DNA of 64,000 nucleotides from Streptomyces sp. DG2A-72 (GTDB taxonomy: Bacteria > Actinomycetota > Actinomycetes > Streptomycetales > Streptomycetaceae): NCBI RefSeq assembly GCF_030499575.1, contig NZ_JASTLC010000001.1:6286001-6350000 (forward strand). The letters run 5' to 3'. The notes under the pieces were generated by a model. It saw only the letters and a program-made list of their open reading frames with translations, made no database searches and had not been told where the DNA came from. This document shows positions 7,417 to 23,464 of the stretch, piece by piece; the first letter of the stretch is position 1; each line of letters begins with the position of its first letter. The position numbers were made by a program, and so were the translations under genes.

Positions 7417-7439
7417 CTGTCAGTGGGGCGCCCTAAACT
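7417..7439 (+). promoter_or_regulatory. PafBC-type DNA-damage promoter of pcrA
   Basis: CTGTCAGTG (7417-7425), exactly 8 bases, then TAAACT (7434-7439). This matches the RecA-independent damage promoter TTGTCRGTG-N8-TANNNT except for the first base. The predicted RNA start (about 7446-7449) falls at the ATG 7449, so the message would be leaderless or nearly so. The motif definition is established in mycobacteria; its use here is inferred. Confidence 0.7.
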
Positions 7440-7448
7440 CGGAGAGCG

Positions 7449-9932
7449 ATGAGCAGCCTCTTTGACGACAGCTTCCTGGCGAACCTCCAGGCCCCTCGGG
7501 CCCATGCGGAGGAACCCCCGCCGCCGCCCGAGGACGATCATGTGCCGGAGCCGATTCCGGATGATCTGTTCGGCGGGAAGTTCGACGCGCCGCCGGACCG
7601 GGACGCGTACTACCGGGACGGCGCGCACCGCCCGGCGGTGGACCCGGCCGCGCTCCTGGACGGGCTGAACGAGAACCAGCGAGCGGCCGTCGTCCACTCC
7701 GGCTCCCCGCTGCTCATCGTGGCCGGCGCCGGCTCCGGCAAGACGCGTGTGCTGACGCACCGCATCGCGTACCTGCTCGGCGAGCGCAAGGTGCACCCCG
7801 GCCAGATCCTCGCGATCACCTTCACCAACAAGGCCGCCGGCGAGATGAAGGAGCGCGTCGAGCAACTCGTCGGCCCGCGCGCGAACGCGATGTGGGTGAT
7901 GACCTTCCACAGCGCATGCGTACGCATCCTGCGCCGCGAGTCGAAGAAGCTCGGCTTCACGTCATCCTTCTCGATCTACGACGCCGCCGATTCCAAGCGC
8001 CTGATGGCCCTGGTCTGCCGCGACCTGGACCTCGACCCCAAGCGCTACCCGCCCAAGTCCTTCAGCGCCAAGATCAGCAACCTGAAGAACGAGCTGATCG
8101 ACGAGGAGGACTTCGCCGCCCAGGCCACCGACGGCTTCGAGAAAACCCTCGCCCAGGCGTACGCGATGTACCAGTCGCGCCTGCGCGAGGCCAACGCCCT
8201 CGACTTCGACGACCTGATCATGACGACGGTCAACCTGCTGCGCGCCTTCCCGGACGTTGCCGAGCACTACCGCCGCCGCTTCCGGCACGTCATGGTCGAC
8301 GAGTACCAGGACACCAACCACGCGCAGTACGCCCTGGTACGCGAACTCGTCGGCACCGGTGAGCACGATGAAGACGTACCGCCCAACGAGCACGACCTGC
8401 TCCCCGCCGAGCTGTGCGTCGTCGGTGACGCCGACCAGTCGATCTACGCCTTCCGCGGCGCGACCATCCGCAACATCCTCCAGTTCGAGGAGGACTACCC
8501 GGACGCGACGACGATCCTGCTGGAGCAGAACTACCGCTCCACCCAGACGATCCTCACCGCCGCCAACGCCGTCATCGAGCGCAACGAGTCCCGCCGCCCC
8601 AAGAACCTGTGGACCAACGCGGGCGCGGGCGCGCGCATCACCGGCTATGTCGCCGACACCGAGCACGACGAGGCGCAGTTCGTCGCCGAGGAGATAGACC
8701 GCCTCACGGACGCGGGCGACGCGAAGGCCGGCGACGTCGCGGTCTTCTACCGTACGAACGCCCAGTCCCGTGTCTTCGAAGAGGTCTTCATCCGCGTCGG
8801 CCTGCCCTACAAGGTCGTCGGCGGCGTCCGCTTCTACGAGCGCAAGGAGGTCCGGGACGTCCTGGCCTACCTGCGCGTGCTCGCCAACCCCGAGGACTCG
8901 GTCCCGCTGCGCCGCATCCTCAACGTGCCCAAGCGGGGCATCGGCGACCGCGCCGAGGCGATGATCGACGCCCTCTCCCAGCGCGAGAAGATCAGCTTCC
9001 CGCAGGCACTGCGCCGCGTCGACGAGGCGTACGGCATGGCCGCCCGGTCGACGAACGCGGTCAAGCGGTTCAACGTGCTCATGGAGGAGCTCCGTACGAT
9101 CGTCGAGTCGGGCGCGGGCCCCGCGACCGTCCTCGAGGCCGTCCTCGAACGCACCGGGTACCTCGCCGAGTTGCAGGCCTCCACCGACCCGCAGGACGAG
9201 ACCCGGATCGAGAACCTCCAGGAACTCGCGGCCGTGGCCCTGGAGTTCGAGCAGGAGGCCGGGGAGGGCGAGGCCGCGGGCGGACTCTCCGACTTCCTGG
9301 AGCGCGTCGCCCTGGTCGCCGACTCCGACCAGATCCCCGACGAGGACGAGGAAGGCGCGGGCGTCATCACCCTGATGACCCTGCACACCGCCAAGGGCCT
9401 CGAATTCCCCGTCGTGTTCCTGACCGGCATGGAGGACGGCGTCTTCCCGCACATGCGCGCCCTCGGCCAGACCAAGGAGCTGGAGGAGGAGCGGCGCCTG
9501 GCGTACGTCGGCATCACGCGCGCGCGGGAACGCCTCTATCTGACGCGGTCCGCCATGCGGAGCGCGTGGGGGCAGCCGTCGTACAACCCGCCCTCGCGTT
9601 TCCTGGCGGAGATCCCGGACCAGCACGTGGACTGGAAGCGGACCGGTCCCTCCGCGGCCCCGGCGGGCCCGGTGTCGGGCGTCGCCGCCTCGCTGTCCTC
9701 GTCCCGCTCCCGCTCGTCGGCATCGGGCGCCTCCGGCTTCGCCACGCGACGGACCTCGGAGAAACCGGTGGTCGCGCTGGCGGTCGGCGACCGGGTCACC
9801 CACGACCAGTTCGGTCTCGGCACGGTGATGGCGGTCAAGGGCACCGGCGGCAACGCGGAGGCCACGATCGACTTCGGCGACACCAAGCCGAAGCGGCTGC
9901 TGCTGCGCTACGCGCCGGTGGAGAAGCTCTGA
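7449..9932 (+). CDS. pcrA: ATP-dependent DNA helicase PcrA (UvrD/Rep family)
   Basis: 827 aa, a full-length SF1A 3'-5' helicase for nucleotide-excision repair, removal of RecA filaments and replication-transcription conflict. After an 80-residue acidic/Pro N-tail the motifs come in order: Walker A VAGAGSGKTRVL, TFTNKAAGEM, motif II VDEYQDTNHAQY, motif III GDADQSIYAFRGA, motif IV QNYRST, motif V TLHTAKGLEFPVV, and motif VI YVGITRARERLYL. The C-terminal 60 residues are the PcrA Tudor-like RNA-polymerase-binding domain (VGDRVTHDQFGLGTVMAVKG). A damage-type promoter sits directly upstream. Confidence 0.97.
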   Translation: MSSLFDDSFLANLQAPRAHAEEPPPPPEDDHVPEPIPDDLFGGKFDAPPDRDAYYRDGAHRPAVDPAALLDGLNENQRAAVVHSGSPLLIVAGAGSGKTRVLTHRIAYLLGERKVHPGQILAITFTNKAAGEMKERVEQLVGPRANAMWVMTFHSACVRILRRESKKLGFTSSFSIYDAADSKRLMALVCRDLDLDPKRYPPKSFSAKISNLKNELIDEEDFAAQATDGFEKTLAQAYAMYQSRLREANALDFDDLIMTTVNLLRAFPDVAEHYRRRFRHVMVDEYQDTNHAQYALVRELVGTGEHDEDVPPNEHDLLPAELCVVGDADQSIYAFRGATIRNILQFEEDYPDATTILLEQNYRSTQTILTAANAVIERNESRRPKNLWTNAGAGARITGYVADTEHDEAQFVAEEIDRLTDAGDAKAGDVAVFYRTNAQSRVFEEVFIRVGLPYKVVGGVRFYERKEVRDVLAYLRVLANPEDSVPLRRILNVPKRGIGDRAEAMIDALSQREKISFPQALRRVDEAYGMAARSTNAVKRFNVLMEELRTIVESGAGPATVLEAVLERTGYLAELQASTDPQDETRIENLQELAAVALEFEQEAGEGEAAGGLSDFLERVALVADSDQIPDEDEEGAGVITLMTLHTAKGLEFPVVFLTGMEDGVFPHMRALGQTKELEEERRLAYVGITRARERLYLTRSAMRSAWGQPSYNPPSRFLAEIPDQHVDWKRTGPSAAPAGPVSGVAASLSSSRSRSSASGASGFATRRTSEKPVVALAVGDRVTHDQFGLGTVMAVKGTGGNAEATIDFGDTKPKRLLLRYAPVEKL

Positions 9933-13702: not shown

Positions 13703-15358
13703 CTATGCCGCTTCCAACTCCTCCGCCATGGCCGCCCGTAGCCGCAGTGTCGTGACCAGGCGCTGGAACGCCTCCGCCCAGTACCCACCGGCCCCCGGTG
13801 ACGCATCCTCCGGTTCGTCCGGTACGGCCACCAGGCCGTCCAGTCGGACCGCCTCCCCGGGGTCCAGGCAGCGTTCGGCCAACCCCATCACCCCACTGAA
13901 ACTCCATGGATAACTCCCCGCGTCTCGCGCGATGTTGAGTGCGTCCACCACAGCCCGCCCCAGTGGCGTGGCCCACGGCACCGCGCACACTCCGAGCAGC
14001 TGGAACGCCTCGGACAGCCCGTGCGCCGCGATGAACCCGGCCACCCACTCGGCGCGTTCGGCGCAGCCCAGCGTGCCGAGGAGCTTCGCCCGTTCTGCCA
14101 GTGACACTGCTCCTGGACCGCCGGCTTCCGGTGCCGACGGAGTGCCGAGGAGCGCCCGTGCCCACTCCGCGTCCCGCTGTCGCACGGCGGCTCGGCACCA
14201 CGCCGCGTGCAGCTCGCTCTGCCAGTCGTCCGCGACCGGCAGCGCCACGATCTGCTGTGGCGTACGTCCGCCGAGCCGGCCGGGCCAGGTCCCGAGCGGT
14301 GCCGCCTCCACCAACTGGCCGAACCACCATGACCGTTCACCCCGTCCCGCCGGAGGCTTGGTCACGACACCGTCCCGCTCCATGCTGGGGTCGCACTCGT
14401 GCGGCGCTTCAACGGCGATCGTCGGTATCTCCCGCATACGGTCGACGGTCACGCACGCCCCGGCCCGGACCGCCATCCGTCCGGCCAGTGCCGACCCCGG
14501 CAGCGCCGACAGCAACTCCGCCGCCGTCGCCCGTACGTTGCGGCTCCGGTCGGCCAGCGCCTGTTCCAGGAACGGCTCGTCGTCCGGTCCCAGTCCTGTC
14601 CGCAGCGAGTCGAGGAACATCAGGCGGTCCTCCGCCCGTTCCGTCGACCAGGTGGTCGCGAGCAGTTCGCGTGCGGCGGCCGGCACGCGGGCGCGGATGG
14701 TCGCGAGCAGGGCGACCCGCTCGGCGAACAGTCCCTCCTGCCACAGCTCCCGCACCTTCTCCGTGTCTTCGGGGTCCGGCACCGCCGCGCCCCCGCCCGG
14801 CGCCGCACGCAGGGCGAACCGCCAGTCAGGGTTGAGCCGGGCGAGCCACATCGCCCGCGGTCCCGCGAACGTCAGCGCCGCCGGCCGTAGATCCGTACGG
14901 CCGCGGGCCGCGTCCAGCAGCGCGGGCAGCACCTCCGGTGGCGCCGAGAAGCCGCGCATGTTGGCCCTCGCGAGCCACTGCGGCAGCAACTCCATGAGAT
15001 CCGGTGCCGTGCCTCTGCTGCGGCCGGCGCCCGCGCCGGGACGGTCGGCCAGCAGCAGCGCGAGCCTGCGGGCCGCGGCGGCGGGCAGGTACGGGCGTGG
15101 GTCCTCGGGCGCCGGTTCCGGGCGCTCGGCCGCTCGCGCGGGTCGTAGCCCGGCCCGCCGTCGTACGGTCTCCACGGCCGCCGCGTCCAACAGCGCCATC
15201 GGGGCCTCCCGGCCGGGAACGGAACCCGGCGGAGTGCGCCGCTCGGTCCCGAGCAGGGCGGTGGTGACCAGTTCCTCCCAGGCGCTCGACGCGGGCGTGT
15301 TCGCAGAAGCAGAGACGCTCGGCGCGGGTGCATCCGCGGGAGCGGAGGTCCTGTTCAT
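13703..15358 (-). CDS. DUF5691 protein of the SWIM/MoxR/vWA cluster
   Basis: 551 aa from ATG 15358, with GGAAGGGAAG upstream. The protein is Ala/Arg/Leu-rich and soluble, apparently alpha-helical, with HEAT-like segments around residues 230-300 (DEPFLEQALADRSRNVRATA). It fits the family called DUF5691; no catalytic motif is visible. It lies 82 bp downstream of the SWIM gene on the same strand and should be co-transcribed. E. coli YehQ is a longer single SWIM protein, so this may be the separated partner of the SWIM protein; that is inference. Confidence 0.8.
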   Translation of the reverse strand: MNRTSAPADAPAPSVSASANTPASSAWEELVTTALLGTERRTPPGSVPGREAPMALLDAAAVETVRRRAGLRPARAAERPEPAPEDPRPYLPAAAARRLALLLADRPGAGAGRSRGTAPDLMELLPQWLARANMRGFSAPPEVLPALLDAARGRTDLRPAALTFAGPRAMWLARLNPDWRFALRAAPGGGAAVPDPEDTEKVRELWQEGLFAERVALLATIRARVPAAARELLATTWSTERAEDRLMFLDSLRTGLGPDDEPFLEQALADRSRNVRATAAELLSALPGSALAGRMAVRAGACVTVDRMREIPTIAVEAPHECDPSMERDGVVTKPPAGRGERSWWFGQLVEAAPLGTWPGRLGGRTPQQIVALPVADDWQSELHAAWCRAAVRQRDAEWARALLGTPSAPEAGGPGAVSLAERAKLLGTLGCAERAEWVAGFIAAHGLSEAFQLLGVCAVPWATPLGRAVVDALNIARDAGSYPWSFSGVMGLAERCLDPGEAVRLDGLVAVPDEPEDASPGAGGYWAEAFQRLVTTLRLRAAMAEELEAA

Positions 15359-15440: not shown

Positions 15441-16796
15441 TCAGCACAGCGTCACCGCCTCGCTCGTCCCCTCCGGCCAGGCGGTCAGCGGGTTGAAGCC
15501 GCGGTGGCCGCACTCGCCGAAGACCTTCACGGGGGCGCCGCCGGACAGGGCGACGAGTCGCCACAGGCCGGCGCGGGAGCGGGCCGATGGTGTCAGCGGC
15601 AGGGCTGTTGCCCCGTCGGCGTCCGCCAGCTGCCAGGAGTCGCCGTCCGGGGTCGGTATGACGCGGTCCAGCGTGACCGGGACCGACTCCAGCCAGGGGT
15701 CGTCCCGCAGCGCATCGCCGTAACGGGCGGCCGCCTGGACCGTCGTCACTCCCGGCGGACGTATCGCCGCCGGAGCGGGGGGCGCGAACTGCTCACCCAG
15801 GGAAGCCCGCAGCTGCCCCGCTCCGGGGTACGCGGACACCTCGGCGTCCAGGGACAGCCCGACCGGCAGCGCCAGTTCGGGAGCGCGGCCCGCGGCGCCG
15901 TAGGAGAGGAGCAGTGCGGTGCGAGCCGTGTCGGCGCCGTGCAGCCAGATTCTGCGGGTCGTCAGCTTCGGATCGGCCGTGTCGTACTGGGCGAGGATCA
16001 GCCAGCGGTCCCGGACCGGCGGGCCGTCCGCCGATGCGGGCAGGCCGATGCGGGAGCGGACCGTCGCCGCCAGTTCCTCGGGCAGCCGCTCGCGGCGCAG
16101 CCAGCCCTGGTCGAGGAGGTGGAGCAGTGCGCACTCCTCCAGCAGCCGCACCGGCCAGCCGGGACCGGACGCCGGAACAGCCCCCAACTCGCGGACGCGC
16201 GAGGCCAGTCCTGGGGCCTGGGCGTCGACCATGCGGGCCGCGGTCTCCTCCCACAGCCCGTACCCCGCCTGCTCCGCGCCCGCGAGGCCGCCGCGCAACA
16301 GGTCCGCCAGGCGCTGCTCCAGCTCCGACGCCCCCGCGGTGACCCGCTCGGCACGACGCTCCGCCCGGCGCCTGGCGGCCTCCGGATCACCGGGCCCGGA
16401 CGTGGCACCCGTCGGCCCCGCCGCCCGTTTCTCCTCCGTGCGCCGGCGTCTGCCCGCGAGCCACTCCTCCGCCCAGTCCGGTGCCCGGCCCGGCGGCACC
16501 GCGCCGTCCCCGCCCGCCCAGAGCAGCAGCAGCCCGAGCGCGTGCTTGCACGGGAACTTGCGGCTCGGACAACTGCACTTGTACGCGGGGCCGGAGGCGT
16601 CCGCGATGTCGACGACCGTCTGATACGGCTTGCTGCCACTGCCCTTGCACAGCCCCCACACCGTCCCCTCGTCGGAACTGCCCGCCTCGGACCACGGCCC
16701 GGCCGCTCCGAGTTTGCTTCCCGCCTTGCGTGACGCGGCGTCAGGCGCCAGTGCAAGCACCTGGTCCGCGGTCCAGCGCACCCCCTGCTGAGTCAT
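15441..16796 (-). CDS. SWIM zinc-finger protein
   Basis: 451 aa from ATG 16796. The SWIM motif CxCxnCxH is complete near residue 75: CSCPSRKFPCKH. The rest is a Trp/Leu-rich domain of unknown fold. SWIM fingers bind DNA or protein in recombination and conflict-type systems. The start has no ribosome-binding site. A perfect PafBC-type promoter upstream (16826-16804) puts the RNA start at about the ATG, so the mRNA is probably leaderless. It is divergent from the MoxR gene and similar to the SWIM protein YehQ of the E. coli yehLMPQ cluster. Confidence 0.87.
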   Translation of the reverse strand: MTQQGVRWTADQVLALAPDAASRKAGSKLGAAGPWSEAGSSDEGTVWGLCKGSGSKPYQTVVDIADASGPAYKCSCPSRKFPCKHALGLLLLWAGGDGAVPPGRAPDWAEEWLAGRRRRTEEKRAAGPTGATSGPGDPEAARRRAERRAERVTAGASELEQRLADLLRGGLAGAEQAGYGLWEETAARMVDAQAPGLASRVRELGAVPASGPGWPVRLLEECALLHLLDQGWLRRERLPEELAATVRSRIGLPASADGPPVRDRWLILAQYDTADPKLTTRRIWLHGADTARTALLLSYGAAGRAPELALPVGLSLDAEVSAYPGAGQLRASLGEQFAPPAPAAIRPPGVTTVQAAARYGDALRDDPWLESVPVTLDRVIPTPDGDSWQLADADGATALPLTPSARSRAGLWRLVALSGGAPVKVFGECGHRGFNPLTAWPEGTSEAVTLC

Positions 16797-16803
16797 GTCA
16801 TCG

Positions 16804-16826
16804 AAGGTAGATCCCACCACTGACAA
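16804..16826 (-). promoter_or_regulatory. PafBC-type DNA-damage promoter of the SWIM gene
   Basis: On the minus strand TTGTCAGTG (16826-16818), 8 bases, TACCTT (16809-16804): a full match to TTGTCRGTG-N8-TANNNT. Seven bases separate the -10 box from the ATG. Confidence 0.8.
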
Positions 16827-16873
16827 TCGGTCCGGCGAGCGCGTTTGCGCAGGTCAGAACGGATTGTCAGTGG
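16817..16873. repeat. Perfect 12-bp inverted repeat in the divergent promoter region
   Basis: CCACTGACAATC (16817-16828) and GATTGTCAGTGG (16862-16873), centres 45 bp apart. Each arm carries one TTGTCAGTG core, facing outwards, so both operons of the cluster can be served by the same activator. Confidence 0.9.
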
Positions 16874-16886
16874 CGTGGTGCACGGT
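16864..16886 (+). promoter_or_regulatory. PafBC-type promoter of the MoxR operon (weaker -10)
   Basis: TTGTCAGTG (16864-16872), 8 bases, CACGGT (16881-16886). The upstream half is perfect; the -10 half differs from TANNNT at its first base. RNA would start about 16893, giving a 37-nt leader with a ribosome-binding site. Confidence 0.6.
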
Positions 16887-16929
16887 GGACACCAGATCCG
16901 AACCGGCCGAGCTGGAGGGGGCCTCAGCC

Positions 16930-18081
16930 ATGTCTGTGACCGTGGAACCGTCGTCCGTCGAAGTGCCTGAGAACACGTCCGCGCAAGATTCCGCGCAGGA
17001 AGCGGAGCCGCTGCGCCCGCACGCCGAGGACGCCTTCGCCACCGAACTCGCCGCACTGGCCGCGCAGGACGACCGTCCGCGCCCGGCCCGCTGGAAGATG
17101 TCGCCGTGGGCCGTCGCCACGTATCTCCTCGGCGGCACCCTGCCGGACGGCACGGTGATCACACCGAAGTACGTCGGCCCGCGCCGCATCGTCGAGGTCG
17201 CCGTCACCACACTCGCCACCGACCGCGCCCTGCTGCTGCTCGGCGTGCCCGGCACCGCCAAGACCTGGGTCTCCGAGCATCTGGCCGCGGCGGTCAGCGG
17301 CGACTCGACCCTGCTCGTGCAGGGCACGGCGGGCACGCCGGAGGAGGCGATCCGATACGGCTGGAACTACGCGCAGTTGCTCGCGCACGGCCCGAGCCGC
17401 GACGCCCTCGTGCCCAGCCCCGTCATGCGGGCCATGGCGGAGGGGATGACCGCCCGCGTCGAGGAGCTGACCCGTATCCCGGCCGACGTCCAGGACACGC
17501 TCATCACGATCCTGTCCGAGAAGACGCTGCCGATACCGGAGCTGGGGCAGGAGGTGCAGGCGGTCCGTGGCTTCAACCTGATCGCCACGGCCAACGACCG
17601 CGACCGCGGGGTCAACGACCTGTCCAGCGCCCTGCGCCGTCGCTTCAACACCGTCGTGCTGCCGCTGCCGGAGAGTGTCGAGGCCGAGGTCGACATCGTC
17701 TCGCGTCGCGTGGACCAGATCGGACGCTCCCTCGACCTGCCGTCCGTGCCGGACGGCGTCGACGAGATCCGTCGCGTCGTCACGGTCTTTCGCGAACTGC
17801 GCGCCGGGGTCACCTCCGACGGCCGTACGAAGGTGAAGTCGCCCAGCGGCACGTTGTCCACCGCCGAGGCCATCTCCGTCGTCACGAGCGGGCTGGCGCT
17901 GGCCGCCCACTTCGGCGACGGCGTGCTGCGGGCCGGTGACGTCGCCGCGGGCATCCTCGGCGCCGTCGTCCGTGACCCGGCGGCCGACCGGGTCATCTGG
18001 CAGGAGTACCTGGAGGCGGTCGTCCGCGAGCGCGACGGCTGGAAGGACTTCTACCGGGCATGCCGGGAGGTGAGCGCGTGA
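16930..18081 (+). CDS. MoxR-family AAA+ ATPase (YehL-like)
   Basis: 383 aa from ATG 16930 (MSVTVEPSS), chosen for GGAGGGG 9 nt upstream. AAA+ motifs are in order: Walker A GVPGTAKT, a Walker B-like strand ending near VQDTLITILSEKTL, sensor 1 LIATANDRDRG and Arg-finger region SALRRRFN. The N-terminal 45 residues are acidic and Ser/Glu-rich. MoxR ATPases work with vWA proteins as chaperone-like remodellers. Here the partner vWA gene is two genes on, as in E. coli yehL-yehM-yehP. The stop overlaps the next start (GTGA), so translation is coupled. Confidence 0.93.
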   Translation: MSVTVEPSSVEVPENTSAQDSAQEAEPLRPHAEDAFATELAALAAQDDRPRPARWKMSPWAVATYLLGGTLPDGTVITPKYVGPRRIVEVAVTTLATDRALLLLGVPGTAKTWVSEHLAAAVSGDSTLLVQGTAGTPEEAIRYGWNYAQLLAHGPSRDALVPSPVMRAMAEGMTARVEELTRIPADVQDTLITILSEKTLPIPELGQEVQAVRGFNLIATANDRDRGVNDLSSALRRRFNTVVLPLPESVEAEVDIVSRRVDQIGRSLDLPSVPDGVDEIRRVVTVFRELRAGVTSDGRTKVKSPSGTLSTAEAISVVTSGLALAAHFGDGVLRAGDVAAGILGAVVRDPAADRVIWQEYLEAVVRERDGWKDFYRACREVSA

Positions 18082-20585
18082 ACGACAAGGGCGGGGGTGC
18101 TGCCGCAGGGCCACTGCTTCTCGGCGTACGGCATCACGGGCCCGGCTCGGCTCGCGCCGTGCGGGCGGCGCTGGACGCGGCCCAGCCGCGGGTCGTACTG
18201 ATCGAGGGCCCGCCCGAGGCCGACACCCTGATCTCGCTGGCCGCCGACGAGGAGATGCGGCCACCGGTCGCCCTCCTGGCCCACGCCGTGGACGAGCCCG
18301 GCCGTTCGGCGTTCTGGCCGCTGGCCGAGTTCTCCCCGGAGTGGGTCGCGATCCGCTGGGCCCTGGAACACGAAGTACCGGCCCGCTTCATCGACTTGCC
18401 GGCCACGCACACGCTGGTGTGGGAGCGGGATGCGGAGGCCGGGGCCGGGGGCGGGAGTGAGGGCGCCGGGCCTGCTGAGCAGGGAGAGAGGTCCGAAGAA
18501 GCTGCGGAGGGCTCGGGGGCTGAGGGTCGCGCCTCTGGCGCAGGAGACGAGGAGGAGCCGCGCGGTGATGTAGGAGCCGAGGGTGAGCGGGGCCCAGGTT
18601 CTGAGGAGGCGCAGGCGCCCACCGTCGCAGACGTCCGTGTCGACCCGCTGGCCGTGCTTGCCGAAGCCGCCGGTTATGACGACCCCGAGCGGTGGTGGGA
18701 GGACGTCGTCGAGCACCGCGGGGTCGGGGAGAGGGACGCGTTCGCGCCGTTCGTCGTGCTGGAAGAGGCGATGGGGGCGCTGCGGGAGGTGTACGGGACC
18801 GGGGGGCATGACCGGGATCTCGTGCGGGAGGCGTATATGCGGCTCCAAGTGCGGTCGGCGCAGCGTGAGTTCGGGGACGGGGTGGCCGTGGTGTGCGGGG
18901 CCTGGCACGTGCCCGCGCTGCGGCAGAAGGCTGCCGTCTCCGCCGACCGGGCGCTGCTGAAGGGGCTGCCCAAGGTCAAGGTGGACATGACCTGGGTGCC
19001 GTGGACGCACCGCAGGCTGGCGCGGGTCAGCGGATACGGCGCGGGCATCGACTCGCCGGGCTGGTACGGGCATCTGTTCGGCGCGCCGGACCGGCCGGTC
19101 GAGCGGTGGCTGACGAAGGTCGCGGGGCTGCTGCGCGCCGAGGACCGGCTCGTCTCCTCGGCTCATGTCATCGAGGCGGTACGGCTGGCGGAGACGCTCG
19201 CCGCGATGCGCGGACGTCCACTGCCCGGGCTGAGCGAGACGACCGACGCCGTACGGGCGGTGATGTGCGAGGGCTCGGACGTGCCGCTGGCGCTGGTGCA
19301 CGACCGGCTGGTTGTGGGCGATGTGCTGGGGGAGGTGCCGCAGTCGGCGCCCGCGGTGCCGTTGCAGCGGGACCTCGACCGGATCCAGCGTCGGCTGCGG
19401 CTCAAACCGGAGGCGCTGGAGCGGGAGTTGGAGCTCGACCTGCGCAAGGAGACCGACGCCGGACGCAGCAGGCTGCTGCACCGGCTGCGGCTGCTGGGCG
19501 TCGAGTGGGGTGATCCGGCGGCGTCGCGGGGCAGTACGGGTACGTTCCGGGAGACGTGGCGGCTGCGGTGGGAGCCGGAGCTGGCCGTCCGGGTCGCCGA
19601 GGCGGGGGTGTGGGGGACGACCGTGCTCGCCGCCGCGACCGCCAAGGCGGAAGCCGACGCCGTGGCAGCGCAGGGCCTCGCCGAGGTCACCGCGCTCGCC
19701 GAGCGGTGCCTGCTGGCCGAACTGCCGGACGCGCTGCCCACGGTGATGCGGATCCTCGCCGACCGGGCCGCCCTGGACTCCGACGTCGGCCATCTCGCCC
19801 AGGCCCTGCCCGCCCTGGTCCGCTCCCTGCGGTACGGCGACGTGCGCGGCACGGACACCAGCGCGCTGGCCGAGGTCGCGGCGGGCCTCGCCGAACGGAT
19901 CTTCGTCGGCCTGCCTCCGGCGTGCGCCGCGCTCGACGCCGACGCGGCGGAGGAGATGCGGCGCCATGTGGACGCCGTGCACGGGGCGGTGGGGCTGCTG
20001 GGCGACGCTTCCGCGCCGGGCCACGGTGACCTGCGGGTTCGCTGGCGGTCGGTGCTGCGGGTGCTGTCGGGACGGGACACCGTGCCCGGCGTCGTCCGGG
20101 GGCGTGCGGTGCGGTTGCTGCTGGACGAAGGGGAGTTGGGGCAGGACGAGGCGGCACGGCTCATGGGGCTCGTGCTGTCGCCGGGGACAGCACCGGCGGA
20201 CGGGGCCGCGTGGATCGAGGGGTTCGTCGGCGGCGGTTCGGGCGGGGGGATGCTCCTCGTCCACGACGAGCGGTTGCTCGGGCTGGTCGACGCCTGGCTG
20301 ACGGGGGTGCCGGCGGAGGCGTTCACGGACGTACTGCCGCTGCTGCGGCGGACGTTCTCGGCGTACGAGCCGGGGGTGCGGCGGACCCTCGGCGAACTGG
20401 TCCGGCGCGGACCGGGGGCGCGGGGGAGCGTGGCGGCCGTCGGCTCCGGGATACCCGGGTTCGCAGCCGACCTGGACATGGCGCGCGCGGACGCGGTGCT
20501 GCCGGTGGTGCGGCTGCTGCTGGGGCTGGATGACGGCGATCACCCGAGCGCCGACGACAACGACCTTGTGGGGGTGGGGAGATGA
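18078..20585 (+). CDS. DUF5682 protein (YehM-like)
   Basis: 835 aa from GTG 18078, which overlaps the MoxR stop and has GGGAGGTG 7 nt upstream. The N-terminus carries the family signature GVRHHGPGSAR then VVLIEGPPEAD, and later a GAWHVPAL block. This Gly/Glu/His pattern recalls the TraB/ChaN/EreA hydrolase-like fold (inference from motifs only). Residues about 125-180 are a Gly/Glu low-complexity insert (EGAGPAEQGERSEEAAEGSG). The C-terminal two thirds are helical and Leu/Val/Arg-rich. It always goes with MoxR and vWA genes in this cluster type. Biochemical role unknown. Confidence 0.88.
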   Translation: MNDKGGGAAAGPLLLGVRHHGPGSARAVRAALDAAQPRVVLIEGPPEADTLISLAADEEMRPPVALLAHAVDEPGRSAFWPLAEFSPEWVAIRWALEHEVPARFIDLPATHTLVWERDAEAGAGGGSEGAGPAEQGERSEEAAEGSGAEGRASGAGDEEEPRGDVGAEGERGPGSEEAQAPTVADVRVDPLAVLAEAAGYDDPERWWEDVVEHRGVGERDAFAPFVVLEEAMGALREVYGTGGHDRDLVREAYMRLQVRSAQREFGDGVAVVCGAWHVPALRQKAAVSADRALLKGLPKVKVDMTWVPWTHRRLARVSGYGAGIDSPGWYGHLFGAPDRPVERWLTKVAGLLRAEDRLVSSAHVIEAVRLAETLAAMRGRPLPGLSETTDAVRAVMCEGSDVPLALVHDRLVVGDVLGEVPQSAPAVPLQRDLDRIQRRLRLKPEALERELELDLRKETDAGRSRLLHRLRLLGVEWGDPAASRGSTGTFRETWRLRWEPELAVRVAEAGVWGTTVLAAATAKAEADAVAAQGLAEVTALAERCLLAELPDALPTVMRILADRAALDSDVGHLAQALPALVRSLRYGDVRGTDTSALAEVAAGLAERIFVGLPPACAALDADAAEEMRRHVDAVHGAVGLLGDASAPGHGDLRVRWRSVLRVLSGRDTVPGVVRGRAVRLLLDEGELGQDEAARLMGLVLSPGTAPADGAAWIEGFVGGGSGGGMLLVHDERLLGLVDAWLTGVPAEAFTDVLPLLRRTFSAYEPGVRRTLGELVRRGPGARGSVAAVGSGIPGFAADLDMARADAVLPVVRLLLGLDDGDHPSADDNDLVGVGR

Positions 20586-20872
20586 CGACCGACCGGTTGA
20601 GCGAGCTGAGGGAGCCGAGGGAGCCGAGGGGGCGGGCCGAAGCGGTGAACGCGGTCATGGGTACGGGTGGTGGGCAAGCGCTCCTGGTGGCGGACGGTCC
20701 GAGGACGACCGTGCGGGTGATGCCGCTCTGGGCGCGGCCCGGGACGGGACGGCCTGCGGCGGGACAGCGGCCTGTGACGGGACTGCCTGCGACGGGACTG
20801 CCTGCGGTGGGACAGCGGCCTGTGACGGGGCGGCCTGTGGCGGGGCGGGCTCTCACGGGGGTGGGCGTATGA
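20582..20872 (+). CDS. 96-residue ORF coupled between DUF5682 and vWA genes
   Basis: ATG 20582 overlaps the DUF5682 stop and its own stop overlaps the vWA start (ATGA at both ends), filling exactly the 280-bp gap in the operon. The N-terminal half (GTGGGQALLVADGPRTTVRV) looks folded. The C-terminal half is a repeat of PVTGLPATGLPAVGQR type, encoded by imperfect tandem repeats of CCTGTGACGGGACTG. No family recognised. It may be a real small subunit, a translational bridge, or a shrunken remnant. Confidence 0.5.
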   Translation: MTTDRLSELREPREPRGRAEAVNAVMGTGGGQALLVADGPRTTVRVMPLWARPGTGRPAAGQRPVTGLPATGLPAVGQRPVTGRPVAGRALTGVGV

Positions 20873-22032
20873 CGACCGAGGCGATGGACCCGGCGCAGGA
20901 GCGGTTGCGGCGGTGGCGGCTGGTGCTCGGGGGCGACGCGGCCGACGGCACCGGATGCACGCTGGCCGGGCAGGACGCCGCGATGGACGGGGCGCTCTCC
21001 GCGCTCTATGGGCAGGGGGACAAACCGCGGACGGGGCGGGACCGTTCGGCGGGCCTGGGTGCGTCGGCACCGTCCGTGGCGCGCTGGCTCGGGGACATCC
21101 GGACGTACTTCCCCTCCTCCGTCGTGCAGGTGATGCAGCGTGACGCCATCGACCGGCTCGGCCTCGCCACGTTGCTGCTCGAGCCGGAGATGCTGGAGGC
21201 GGTGGACGCGGACGTGCATCTCGTCGGCACGCTGCTCTCGCTGAACAAGGCGATGCCGGAGACCACGAAGGAGACGGCACGGGCGGTCGTGCGCAAGGTC
21301 GTCGAGGATCTCGAGAAGCGGCTCGCCAGCCGCACCCGGGCCACGCTCACCGGCGCCCTCGACCGCAGCGCACGCGTCAACCGACCCCGCCACCATGACA
21401 TCGACTGGAACCGCACGATCGCGGCCAACCTCAAGCACTACCTGCCCGAGTACCGGACGATCGTGCCCGAGCGGCTCATCGGATACGGGCGTGCCTCCCA
21501 GTCAGTGAAGAAGGAGGTCATCCTCTGCATCGACCAGTCGGGGTCGATGGCGGCCTCGGTCGTCTACGCGTCGGTGTTCGGGGCGGTGCTGGCGTCGATG
21601 CGGTCGATCAGTACGCGGCTCGTCGTCTTCGACACGGCCGTCGTCGACCTCACGGACCAGCTCGACGATCCGGTCGATGTGCTCTTCGGCACGCAACTCG
21701 GCGGCGGTACCGACATCAACCGGGCGCTCGCGTACTGCCAGTCGCAGATCACCCGGCCCGCGGAGACGGTGGTCGTGCTGATCAGCGACCTGTACGAGGG
21801 AGGCATACGGAACGAGATGCTCAAGCGGGTCGCGGCGATGAAGGGGTCGGGGGTGCAGTTCGTGACGCTTCTCGCGCTGTCGGACGAGGGGGCGCCCGCG
21901 TATGACCGGGAGCACGCGGCCGCACTCGCGGCGCTGGGCGCGCCCGCCTTCGCGTGCACGCCGGATCTGTTCCCCGAGGTGATGGCTGCAGCGATCGAGA
22001 AGCGGCCGTTGCCGGTTCCGGACAGCGCATGA
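20869..22032 (+). CDS. vWA-domain protein (YehP/CoxE-like), MoxR partner
   Basis: 387 aa from ATG 20869; the open frame extends upstream but that part is the repeat region of another ORF. The N-terminal 180 residues are helical, and the vWA domain begins near residue 210 with a complete MIDAS: CIDQSGSM (DxSxS), then the Thr in GGGTDINRAL and the Asp in LISDLYEGG. It fits YehP/CoxE-type vWA proteins that act as metal-dependent adaptors for a MoxR ATPase. Last gene of the rightward operon. Confidence 0.93.
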   Translation: MTTEAMDPAQERLRRWRLVLGGDAADGTGCTLAGQDAAMDGALSALYGQGDKPRTGRDRSAGLGASAPSVARWLGDIRTYFPSSVVQVMQRDAIDRLGLATLLLEPEMLEAVDADVHLVGTLLSLNKAMPETTKETARAVVRKVVEDLEKRLASRTRATLTGALDRSARVNRPRHHDIDWNRTIAANLKHYLPEYRTIVPERLIGYGRASQSVKKEVILCIDQSGSMAASVVYASVFGAVLASMRSISTRLVVFDTAVVDLTDQLDDPVDVLFGTQLGGGTDINRALAYCQSQITRPAETVVVLISDLYEGGIRNEMLKRVAAMKGSGVQFVTLLALSDEGAPAYDREHAAALAALGAPAFACTPDLFPEVMAAAIEKRPLPVPDSA

Positions 22033-22168: not shown

Positions 22169-23464
22169 TTGTCAGCGGTGCGCCGCGCCCCGCTTGCCCG
22201 CATGCGTCGCGCCGACTTGTCGCTCGTTCCGCCGCACGGGAGGACCCACCCCCTCTTGACCTTCTCAGCAGCCCTGTCCGGTGCCGCTCTGCGTGTCATG
22301 CGCACAGCGGCCGGGCGGCGTGCGCTGCAACTGGCGCTGCTGGTGTGTGGGTTGTTCGCGCTCGGACTGCTCTACGGGGAGCAGGCGCACGCGACGGACG
22401 GGGTGACTTCGACGACCTCGGCCGAAGCCGTGCGGCAAACGGAGCCGGGGGGCGGAGTCCTGGCGGCGACGCGGGCTACGGCCGGGCGGTTGGGGAGTCC
22501 GTCGGCCGAGCGTGCGGACGAGCCGGCTGGTGATGCCATAGAGGCCGTAGGCTCCGACGCGGACTCCTTCGAAGCGGACTCCTCCAAGTCGGCCTCCCCC
22601 GAGCCCAACCCCTCCGAGGCCAACTCCCCTGAGGTTAACTCCTCCGAGGCCAACTCCCCTGAGGTCAACTCCTCCGAGGCCGACTCCCCCGAAGTCACCG
22701 TTCCCCAGCGCCCCCAGGCCGACAAGGCACTCCCTCAGCCGCGCACCCCCAGGCCCGCCGATCGCATACTCCGGCCGGTGACCGAGGATGTCGTCGCGCC
22801 GGTCACCGAACGGGTCGTCAGGCCCGTGACCGAGGAGGTCGTCGGATCCGTGGACGAGCGGGTCGTGCGGCCGGTCGGCGATCTGGTGGGGGGTGTGACC
22901 GAGGGGCTGGCCGAGGCGCGGTGGAACATACCGCCGCTGTCGTTGCCGCCGTCCCTGCCGGTGACGCCCGAGTCGCCGGTGCTGCCGGAATTCCCGGGTG
23001 CCCTGCTGCCTGGGCTGCCCGAACTGCCCCTTCTGCCGGTGCTTCCGGGGCAGTCGCTCCCCGCACCGGTCACGTCGACACCGCAGCCGGCGCCGGACGC
23101 GGGCGTGGACGGCAAGGCGATGGGTGACGGCGCCTCCGAGCAACGTACGGACGGGGCAGCGGCCGTGATGTACGGCCCGATGTTCGTCGCCGACGTGACG
23201 CCGGCCGGCGATGCGACGCATGCCGTCGGGCATCGTGTCCAGCCCACCGAGTACGCGCCTGACCAGCAGGCTCCCGGGGGTGATCCGGGTGGTGCGCTGG
23301 GCAACCGTTCGGCGGCCGACAACGGCGCCTCGCGGCACGGCGATGCGCATGCCGTCGCGCTGCACCACCGGGCGCCGCTGAGGCTGATGGCCGGTGCCGC
23401 CGCTCGTCATGACGCGGGCGAGACCCGGGACAGGCACCCGGACATTCCCGTCTCCCCGGCATAA
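22169..23464 (+). CDS. Secreted/anchored Ser-Pro-Glu repeat protein
   Basis: 431 aa from TTG 22169 (AAGGA 8 nt upstream); ATG 22298, just before the hydrophobic segment LQLALLVCGLFALGLLYG, is possible. After the membrane or signal segment comes a spacer with four imperfect SPEVNSSEAN repeats, a block of repeated PVTEDVV / PVTERVV / PVTEEVV sequence, and a Pro/Leu-rich segment (PELPLLPVLPGQ). The C-terminal 130 residues are Ala/His/Gly-rich without motif. It resembles a wall-spanning or surface stalk. No known family; the next gene is another repeat-rich exported protein. Confidence 0.72.
   Translation: MSAVRRAPLARMRRADLSLVPPHGRTHPLLTFSAALSGAALRVMRTAAGRRALQLALLVCGLFALGLLYGEQAHATDGVTSTTSAEAVRQTEPGGGVLAATRATAGRLGSPSAERADEPAGDAIEAVGSDADSFEADSSKSASPEPNPSEANSPEVNSSEANSPEVNSSEADSPEVTVPQRPQADKALPQPRTPRPADRILRPVTEDVVAPVTERVVRPVTEEVVGSVDERVVRPVGDLVGGVTEGLAEARWNIPPLSLPPSLPVTPESPVLPEFPGALLPGLPELPLLPVLPGQSLPAPVTSTPQPAPDAGVDGKAMGDGASEQRTDGAAAVMYGPMFVADVTPAGDATHAVGHRVQPTEYAPDQQAPGGDPGGALGNRSAADNGASRHGDAHAVALHHRAPLRLMAGAAARHDAGETRDRHPDIPVSPA

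Follow-up and report, generated by a model that had tools for sequence, protein, structure and literature searches.

Two divergent PafBC-type promoters and a shared third element between the halves of a Yeh-type gene cluster in Streptomyces

Gene content of the locus

The window, i.e., the whole 64,000-nucleotide stretch of Streptomyces sp. DG2A-72 DNA that was analysed, carries a cluster of five genes arranged in two divergent halves. The leftward half consists of a gene for a SWIM zinc-finger protein of 451 aa (15441..16796, minus strand; Pfam SWIM) and, downstream of it, a gene for a DUF5691 protein of 551 aa (13703..15358, minus strand; Pfam DUF5691, 591 bits). The rightward half encodes a MoxR-type AAA+ ATPase of 383 aa related to YehL (16930..18081, plus strand; Pfam AAA_5, the scan having used the longer open frame from 16795), a DUF5682 protein of 841 aa related to YehM (18060..20585, plus strand; Pfam DUF5682, 1000 bits) and a CoxE-like VWA protein of 500 aa related to YehP (20530..22032, plus strand; Pfam VWA_CoxE). 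In E. coli K-12, yehL-yehM-yehP-yehQ encode a MoxR ATPase, an uncharacterised protein, a VWA protein and a SWIM protein, respectively. The MoxR protein is 39% identical to E. coli YehL and the VWA protein 38% identical to YehP, while E. coli YehM matches DUF5682 with 331 bits; the SWIM protein and YehQ both contain Pfam SWIM, and their full-length comparison gives an E-value of 0.32. Judged by these homologies, the cluster is of the Yeh type, with the order MoxR, DUF5682, VWA.

By analogy with the MoxR-VWA pairs treated in the accessible portion of PMC7159879, the cluster likely acts as a substrate-remodelling chaperone. PADLOC models gave no match to the five cluster proteins. No clue to the fold of DUF5682 came from weak Pfam matches, and its AlphaFold2 model, built with 20 close homologues, had a mean pLDDT of 47.8, too low for a fold search. 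DUF5682 was not mentioned by name in the literature search, which also returned nothing combining "SWIM zinc finger", Streptomyces and DNA damage.

Two PafBC-type promoters in the SWIM/MoxR spacer

The spacer between the two halves contains the -26 element TTGTCRGTG as an exact match on both strands. The left promoter (16804..16826, minus strand) is composed of TTGTCAGTG at 16818-16826, read as CACTGACAA on the plus strand, followed after 8 nt by TACCTT (16804-16809), a full match to TANNNT. The right promoter (16864..16886, plus strand) has TTGTCAGTG at 16864-16872 and, at the same 8-nt spacing, the hexamer CACGGT (16881-16886), which is one base off. The two -26 elements lie in the arms of a perfect 12-bp inverted repeat (16817..16828 and 16862..16873), which are 45 bp apart from start to start, have 33 bp between them and reach 15 nt at 93% when extended by the repeat finder. 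The preliminary description had reported TTGTCAGTG in both arms of a perfect inverted repeat at a distance of 45 bp, with TACCTT as a full and CACGGT as a near match each 8 nt downstream, and both observations were recovered, with 0 and 1 mismatches, respectively. On the left, the ATG of the SWIM gene (16796) lies 7 nt past the end of the hexamer (16804), so that a leaderless mRNA is likely. On the right, the MoxR ATG lies 43 nt past the promoter, with a GGAGGG ribosome site in between.

Six matches to the motif with at most two mismatches occur in the window, compared with 1.43 expected, a number reached by none of 100 shuffles. Apart from the pair, a single match has no more than one mismatch; it lies about 9.4 kb away and is a third PafBC-type promoter, CTGTCAGTG-N8-TAAACT (7417..7439, plus strand; 1 mismatch), located 9 nt before the ATG of a gene for a UvrD/PcrA helicase (7449-9932, plus strand; Pfam). 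In another genome (G001), the hexamer TAAACT likewise belongs to an exact site, about 9.8 kb away from the site next to the MoxR gene of that genome. A one-mismatch core, TTGTCAGCG (22169-22177, plus strand), is associated with a TTG-start ORF just 3′ of the VWA gene, and a hexamer match at 8 nt is absent there.

Other promoter types were considered for this spacer. The housekeeping sigma promoter (TTGACA, 16-18 nt, TATAAT) was rejected, with 0 occurrences in 16700-17000 and 0.0 expected. Control of the cluster by LexA, as part of the ordinary SOS response, has in its favour the large size of the LexA regulon in S. venezuelae, 175 binding sites according to the available part of PMC9380542, which also provided the SOS box consensus tCGAAC-N4-GNNCGa. 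No such box was found in the spacer: GAAC-N4-GTTC within one mismatch is absent from it, the nearest copy (16945-16956) lying inside the MoxR gene; the best match to CGAAC-N4-GNNCG in 16781-16950 has two mismatches; and the 21 GAAC-N4-GTTC sites in the window (up to one mismatch) are to be compared with 18.7 expected. A LexA-driven SOS promoter was consequently discarded, and LexA control of the cluster is regarded as highly improbable.

The same motif precedes repair genes throughout the genome

The genome scan that the preliminary description had recommended, performed with TTGTCRGTG-N8-TANNNT on the 10.58-Mb genome, gave 150 matches with at most one mismatch, as against 10 for the reversed pattern. 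Exact matches numbered 38, before recA, uvrA, uvrB, ruvC and radA among others, as against 0 for the reversed exact control, and the exact motif with a spacer of N7 or N9 occurred 0 times each in the whole genome. The motif pair is more than the product of chance. Seventy genome sites were examined, namely all 38 exact sites and 32 hand-picked from the 112 with one mismatch, the downstream gene being assigned by a mechanical rule; after the 38 exact sites, an ORF starts within 110 nt in 32 cases, only at 340-393 nt in four and not at all in two. In 14 of the 38 exact sites, and in 22 of all 70 examined, a start codon (ATG or GTG) follows the hexamer at a distance of exactly 7 nt, which is a sign of leaderless promoters.

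Twenty of the downstream proteins were named by NCBIfam and further ones by Pfam. RuvC, UvrB, Ogt, RadA/Sms, RecA, ThyX and a UDG-superfamily protein score above the curated cut-offs behind exact sites, as do DNA polymerase IV (DinB), DnaE, HolA, RecD2, DnaX and Nth behind one-mismatch sites. Below cut-off, exact sites precede matches to UvrA (partial sequence), a RarA-like AAA protein and a YoaA/DinG-like helicase. Exact sites (L010 and L017) also stand before genes that do not serve repair, namely moaA and that of an EmrB-type efflux protein, whose products score above cut-off. Another head-to-head pair, made up of one-mismatch sites, lies at 2622922-2622944 (minus strand; L174) and 2622966-2622988 (plus strand; L175), with an ORF downstream on each side. 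The site CCGTGGTG-CACACT (997902-997924, plus strand), whose spacer and hexamer are very close to those of the right promoter, is located 8 nt before a HEAT-repeat gene.

The genome also encodes the putative regulator. A tandem WYL pair at 1807732-1808929 matches the solved chains of PafB and PafC in 7p5x with best E-values of 1.7e-55 and 8.6e-52, and also matches 6sj9. An exact motif lies about 2 kb downstream of pafB-pafC, 10 nt before a helicase gene (1805108-1805130, minus strand). The assignment of the spacer to PafBC-type (RecA-NDp) promoters, put forward in the preliminary description, gains from the repair-gene set under the same motif, from the presence of pafB and pafC and from conservation; this comparative evidence strongly supports it.

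The preliminary description had further stated that this promoter is known from mycobacteria. That is incomplete, since the RecA-NDp promoter has been reported in Streptomyces too, according to the accessible text of PMC5087735. There, a RecA-NDp promoter is described before SCO6735 in several Streptomyces, with an approximately 5-fold induction by UV, and also before recA in Streptomyces coelicolor; Ahel et al. 2002 are cited for the recA promoter of S. rimosus.

Conservation of the two promoters across Streptomyces

Conservation was assessed on the best 80 of 566 MoxR relatives, all of them from Streptomyces and hence close relatives. The right motif is kept in 80/80 loci, its core without mismatch in 78, and the left motif is kept with TANNNT in 76/80, its core without mismatch in 72; the left motif is absent from L069, L093, L095 and L098. 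The preliminary description had named loss of the two copies in related genomes as a refuting outcome, and it is their retention that was observed. The right hexamer starts with C-A in all 80 loci, and because its first base is C throughout, the near match on the right is not a decayed site. The 8-nt spacer on the right is largely conserved as well (positions 11-18 at 94-100%), so conservation on this side is no specific mark of PafBC. As the MoxR frame is open upstream as far as 16795, conservation of the right leader as coding sequence was considered; it was rejected because, in the sequences compared, the distance from motif to MoxR ATG shifts by non-multiples of three.

The distance between the 5′ ends of the two motifs is far less constant than the motifs. 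It amounts to 37-40 nt in 42 loci, 49-50 nt in 20, 61-62 nt in eight and 27-28 nt in two, with single loci at 87, 121, 188 and 202 nt. On a FastTree tree of MoxR DNA, at least 19 changes of distance class are required when "none" and "other" are counted as classes. Because their mutual distance varies, the arms evolve as two promoters and not as one operator, and the inverted repeat is not in itself the unit of function, its arm spacing differing between species. A pair of exact arms separated by a gap of 12-42 nt was found in 71 of 150 Streptomyces genomes, one of which has two pairs, a match here being any such arm pair at the SWIM/MoxR spacer or elsewhere.

These data bear directly on the idea that the inverted repeat is a single operator for a dimeric repressor or activator, whose likeness to a PafBC site would be incidental. 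The perfect 12-bp arms, extending to 15 nt at 93%, are what such an operator would offer. Its rigid form is ruled out by the varying arm distance (27 to 202 nt), and the -10 hexamers at 8 nt on both sides also count against an operator, as does the occurrence of the one-sided motif alone before many other genes, repair genes included, and before SWIM in other families. We give this possibility very little credence and retain two separate promoters.

Distribution in the phylum and other gene orders

Among 198 genomes drawn from the phylum, 53 contain the exact motif. The 8/8 Streptomyces genomes of this sample have 10 to 40 exact sites each (0 or 1 in the control), and strings identical to the recA and uvrA sites of the studied genome recur in other Streptomyces genomes. 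Four genomes of one genus (g7, family f5) carry 9 to 11 exact sites, mostly TTGTCGGTG, and one genome of family f6 carries seven.

The motif is thus most frequent in Streptomyces, family f5 coming next, and this ranking is one of the points against the proposal that RecA-NDp-type promoters are driven in Streptomyces by another regulator, e.g., ClgR, instead of PafBC. ClgR does recognise the mycobacterial P1 motif, according to the available part of PMC5656591, and the literature listings show no expression data for pafBC of Streptomyces. Set against this, pafB and pafC are both encoded in the genome, and RecA-NDp is tied to PafBC in mycobacteria by the literature, as far as the accessible portions go. 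A different regulator is regarded as improbable, and PafBC remains the preferred one.

Outside Streptomyces, 20 of the 22 strongest matches, from the same class, were inspected as loci of other families. SWIM, DUF5691 and MoxR form one co-directional series in 20/20 of these genomes. A -26 element of the TTGTC or GTGTC type, together with a YANNNT hexamer, stands 6-8 nt before an in-frame SWIM start in 12/20 loci, several of these elements being weak, such as TTGTCACCC and GTGTCGGAG; over both strands of all 20 loci, this loose pattern has 13 matches, 12 of which are those before the SWIM start. The remaining 8/20 genomes showed no such motif ahead of SWIM. The loose pattern was adopted after a stricter score (at most one mismatch, fixed window), which is passed by 4/20 loci as against 10/954 control segments. 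A third arrangement is provided by family f3, which belongs to the same taxonomic order and of which 10 of the 13 genomes with a DUF5682 match were examined: here, TTGTCAGTG-GCGTGGTG-CACAAT lies between SWIM and DUF5691 in 7/10 loci, and a two-mismatch variant in one more. We infer, as the simplest history, that Streptomyces divided an ancestral operon with one promoter into two, and that each part retained or acquired a promoter of this type for itself.

A third conserved element between the arms

Between the arms, at 16849..16857, lies one more conserved element, GCAGGTCAG, which reads TGACCTGC on the opposite strand and is common to both promoters, with AGGTCA 7 nt before the right motif and TGACCTGC 22 nt before the left motif. 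In the 80 Streptomyces loci, with some degeneracy allowed, 67 have the element in this orientation 6 or 7 nt ahead of the right motif and one has it at 17 nt; in the opposite orientation, it stands at 12 nt (four loci), 23 nt (three) and 172 nt (one), and none was found in five loci. Relative to the left motif, 66 of 75 elements lie at 12, 22-23, 34 or 45-46 nt, two others being at 105 and 186 nt, while seven occurrences in the opposite orientation lie at 7 nt (two), 18 nt (three), 19 nt (one) and 167 nt (one).

The spacing was also studied away from this locus. In the studied genome, TGACCTGC-N5..35-TTGTCAGTG has four matches, all with gaps of 22-24 nt and one of them inside a coding gene. 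Across 41 Streptomyces genomes, TGACCTGC precedes TTGTCAGTG in 61 matches. A promoter class with TGACCTGC at 24 nt was discarded, as 23 of these 61 matches are one sequence, which lies here inside a coding gene on the other strand; the product of that gene is, in our own reading, NuoJ. The 38 matches left after removal of these 23 have gaps of 11-12 nt (11 matches), 22-23 nt (21), 31 nt (two) and 34-35 nt (four), and 18 of their 19 similarity groups fall on the gap ladder; the gap bins were set after the data had been seen, and the similarity groups are partly dependent on one another. For the reverse orientation, peaks at 6-7 and 17-19 nt were predicted before the result was seen. AGGTCA precedes TTGTCAGTG in 139 matches across 61 Streptomyces genomes, as against 3 for the reversed control, with a gap of 6 or 7 nt in 105 of the 139 and of 17-19 nt in 12, when 31 gaps were allowed; the MoxR site is among the 139 (at least 18 of them coincide in coordinates with arm pairs), as are many orthologues. 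Outside Streptomyces, among the matches listed, the gap is 6 or 7 nt in 10 of 150 when R is allowed in the core, where 9.7 would be expected from a flat distribution, and in 0 of 16 with TTGTCAGTG.

Within the studied genome, the element accompanies few of the examined PafBC-type sites. TGACCTGC occurs within 60 nt upstream of 4/38 exact sites, at 22, 22, 23 and 45 nt, and AGGTCA within 60 nt upstream of 2/32 examined one-mismatch sites, at 7 and 14 nt. Twenty composite loci were picked by hand, 18 with a gap of 6-7 nt from other genomes and two from this one (one with a gap of 14 nt). All 20 hexamers have A at the second and T at the sixth position, and 14/20 have C at the first. Downstream proteins with a Pfam match include members of the HEPN_SAV_6107, Lhr helicase, pentapeptide-repeat, response-regulator, SnoaL, SUKH and DUF1877 families, and one more resembles the SWIM protein of the cluster by its first residues. 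Among the sites examined, the composite ones lie before Yeh-type, HEPN, Lhr-helicase and pentapeptide-repeat genes, and not before recA or the uvr genes.

Several individual sites may be recorded. The other sites of this genome with AGGTCAG at a gap of 6-7 nt from the motif precede an SAV_6107-like HEPN gene (L200; 2597350-2597372, minus strand) and an Lhr-type helicase gene (L267; 7815767-7815787, minus strand). TGACCTGC is found 23 nt before an exact motif in L199 (6458695-6458748, minus strand), with a protein combining sigma-70 region 4 and an NTF2-like domain starting, by the mechanical rule, about 390 nt downstream; 22 nt before an exact motif in L198 (2097173-2097225, minus strand), upstream of a 755-aa AAA_5 protein; and 45 nt before an exact motif in L004 (1463975-1463997, minus strand).

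The steps of 11-12 nt suggest that a separate protein would bind the third element on one face of the DNA. The element could also be an extended part of the PafBC site, contacted, e.g., by PafC or by sigma region 4, with no second protein involved. GCAGGTCAG does contain GTCAG as a direct repeat of the core, lies close upstream, mostly at a gap of 6 or 7 nt, and accompanies a weaker hexamer, with C first in 14/20 hand-picked sites. A rigid contact would, however, not extend to the reversed element at 11-12, 22-23 and 34-35 nt, nor to the distances of 12, 22-23, 34 or 45-46 nt that mostly separate the element from the left motif; moreover, the element is upstream of only 4/38 exact and 2/32 one-mismatch examined sites, and the gap peak is absent outside Streptomyces among the matches listed. 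An extended PafBC site is therefore considered unlikely, although it carries more weight than the other alternatives considered here. On balance, we lean towards a Streptomyces-specific composite subset of PafBC-type promoters, in which a second protein would bind AGGTCAG 6-7 nt upstream of TTGTCAGTG (or, in the reversed orientation, at about 12, 23, 34 or 46 nt, in steps of approximately a helical turn), often in combination with a weaker CANNNT hexamer, and would add a second damage-response signal, one element serving both divergent promoters. A literature search for TGACCTGC and CAGGTCAG together with Streptomyces gave nothing apparently relevant to a binding factor, as judged from the listings. 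Owing to the shared, phased third element, the pair is a variant of the promoter kind for which no description was found in the searched literature, as far as its accessible portions extend.

Model and significance

According to the accessible portion of PMC11804915, single-stranded DNA activates PafBC, which adapts sigma A in such a way that RNA polymerase uses PafBC promoters via the -26 element. Applied to the present locus, DNA damage would give rise to single-stranded DNA and hence to active PafBC, which would enable the housekeeping RNA polymerase to recognise TTGTCAGTG as the -26 element together with the -10 hexamer 8 nt downstream. Both promoters would then turn on the SWIM-DUF5691 half and the MoxR-DUF5682-VWA half together. 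The phased spacing of the single GCAGGTCAG between the arms suggests that a second factor, serving both promoters, probably binds there. We consider it very likely that the spacer holds two separate, back-to-back PafBC-type promoters that co-activate both halves of the Yeh-type cluster after damage, with a probable second factor at GCAGGTCAG. The sequence itself shows the motif, its spacing, the repair-gene set, pafB/pafC, conservation and retention of the motif through changes of gene order; damage induction, PafBC binding and the start sites are predicted from these.

These comparisons speak for a large repair regulon of the PafBC type in Streptomyces, seen in 8/8 genomes of the phylum sample. 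Such a regulon stands against a statement in the available text of PMC9380542, where a first search is said to have suggested a lack of conservation of the M. smegmatis motif in S. venezuelae, a species that is not singled out in our sample. The Yeh-type MoxR/DUF5682/VWA/SWIM cluster can be provisionally assigned to the DNA-damage response by conserved promoters that have outlasted gene rearrangement. Should the third element prove real, a defined subset of the damage genes in Streptomyces would receive a second input in addition to PafBC.

Comparison with known systems

The cluster can be compared with the MoxR-vWA ternary conflict systems of Kaur et al. 2020 (PMC7159879, available in part), with which it shares a MoxR AAA+ ATPase, a vWA partner and further proteins. 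It differs from them in that VMAP, iSTAND, FtsH and beta-propeller domains are absent from the five Pfam annotations; the Pfam bpMoxR model scores 22.7 on the MoxR protein of the window, below the cut-off of 27. As in E. coli yehLMPQ, MoxR, DUF5682 and VWA occur in the same order with homologous proteins, and a SWIM protein belongs to the set. In contrast to E. coli, the SWIM gene of Streptomyces is divergent, its product aligning with YehQ no further than chance, and the Streptomyces cluster adds DUF5691 and the PafBC-type promoters.

As to these promoters, the pair is a new member of the known RecA-NDp promoter kind. It shares with the mycobacterial RecA-NDp (P1) promoter the TTGTCRGTG element, the 8-nt spacing and, on the left, TANNNT, the presence of the motif before recA and other repair genes, and pafB/pafC in the genome. 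Unlike that promoter, it comprises two divergent copies serving one split cluster, has CANNNT as the right hexamer in 80/80 relatives and includes the added GCAGGTCAG, its dependence on PafBC being predicted here.
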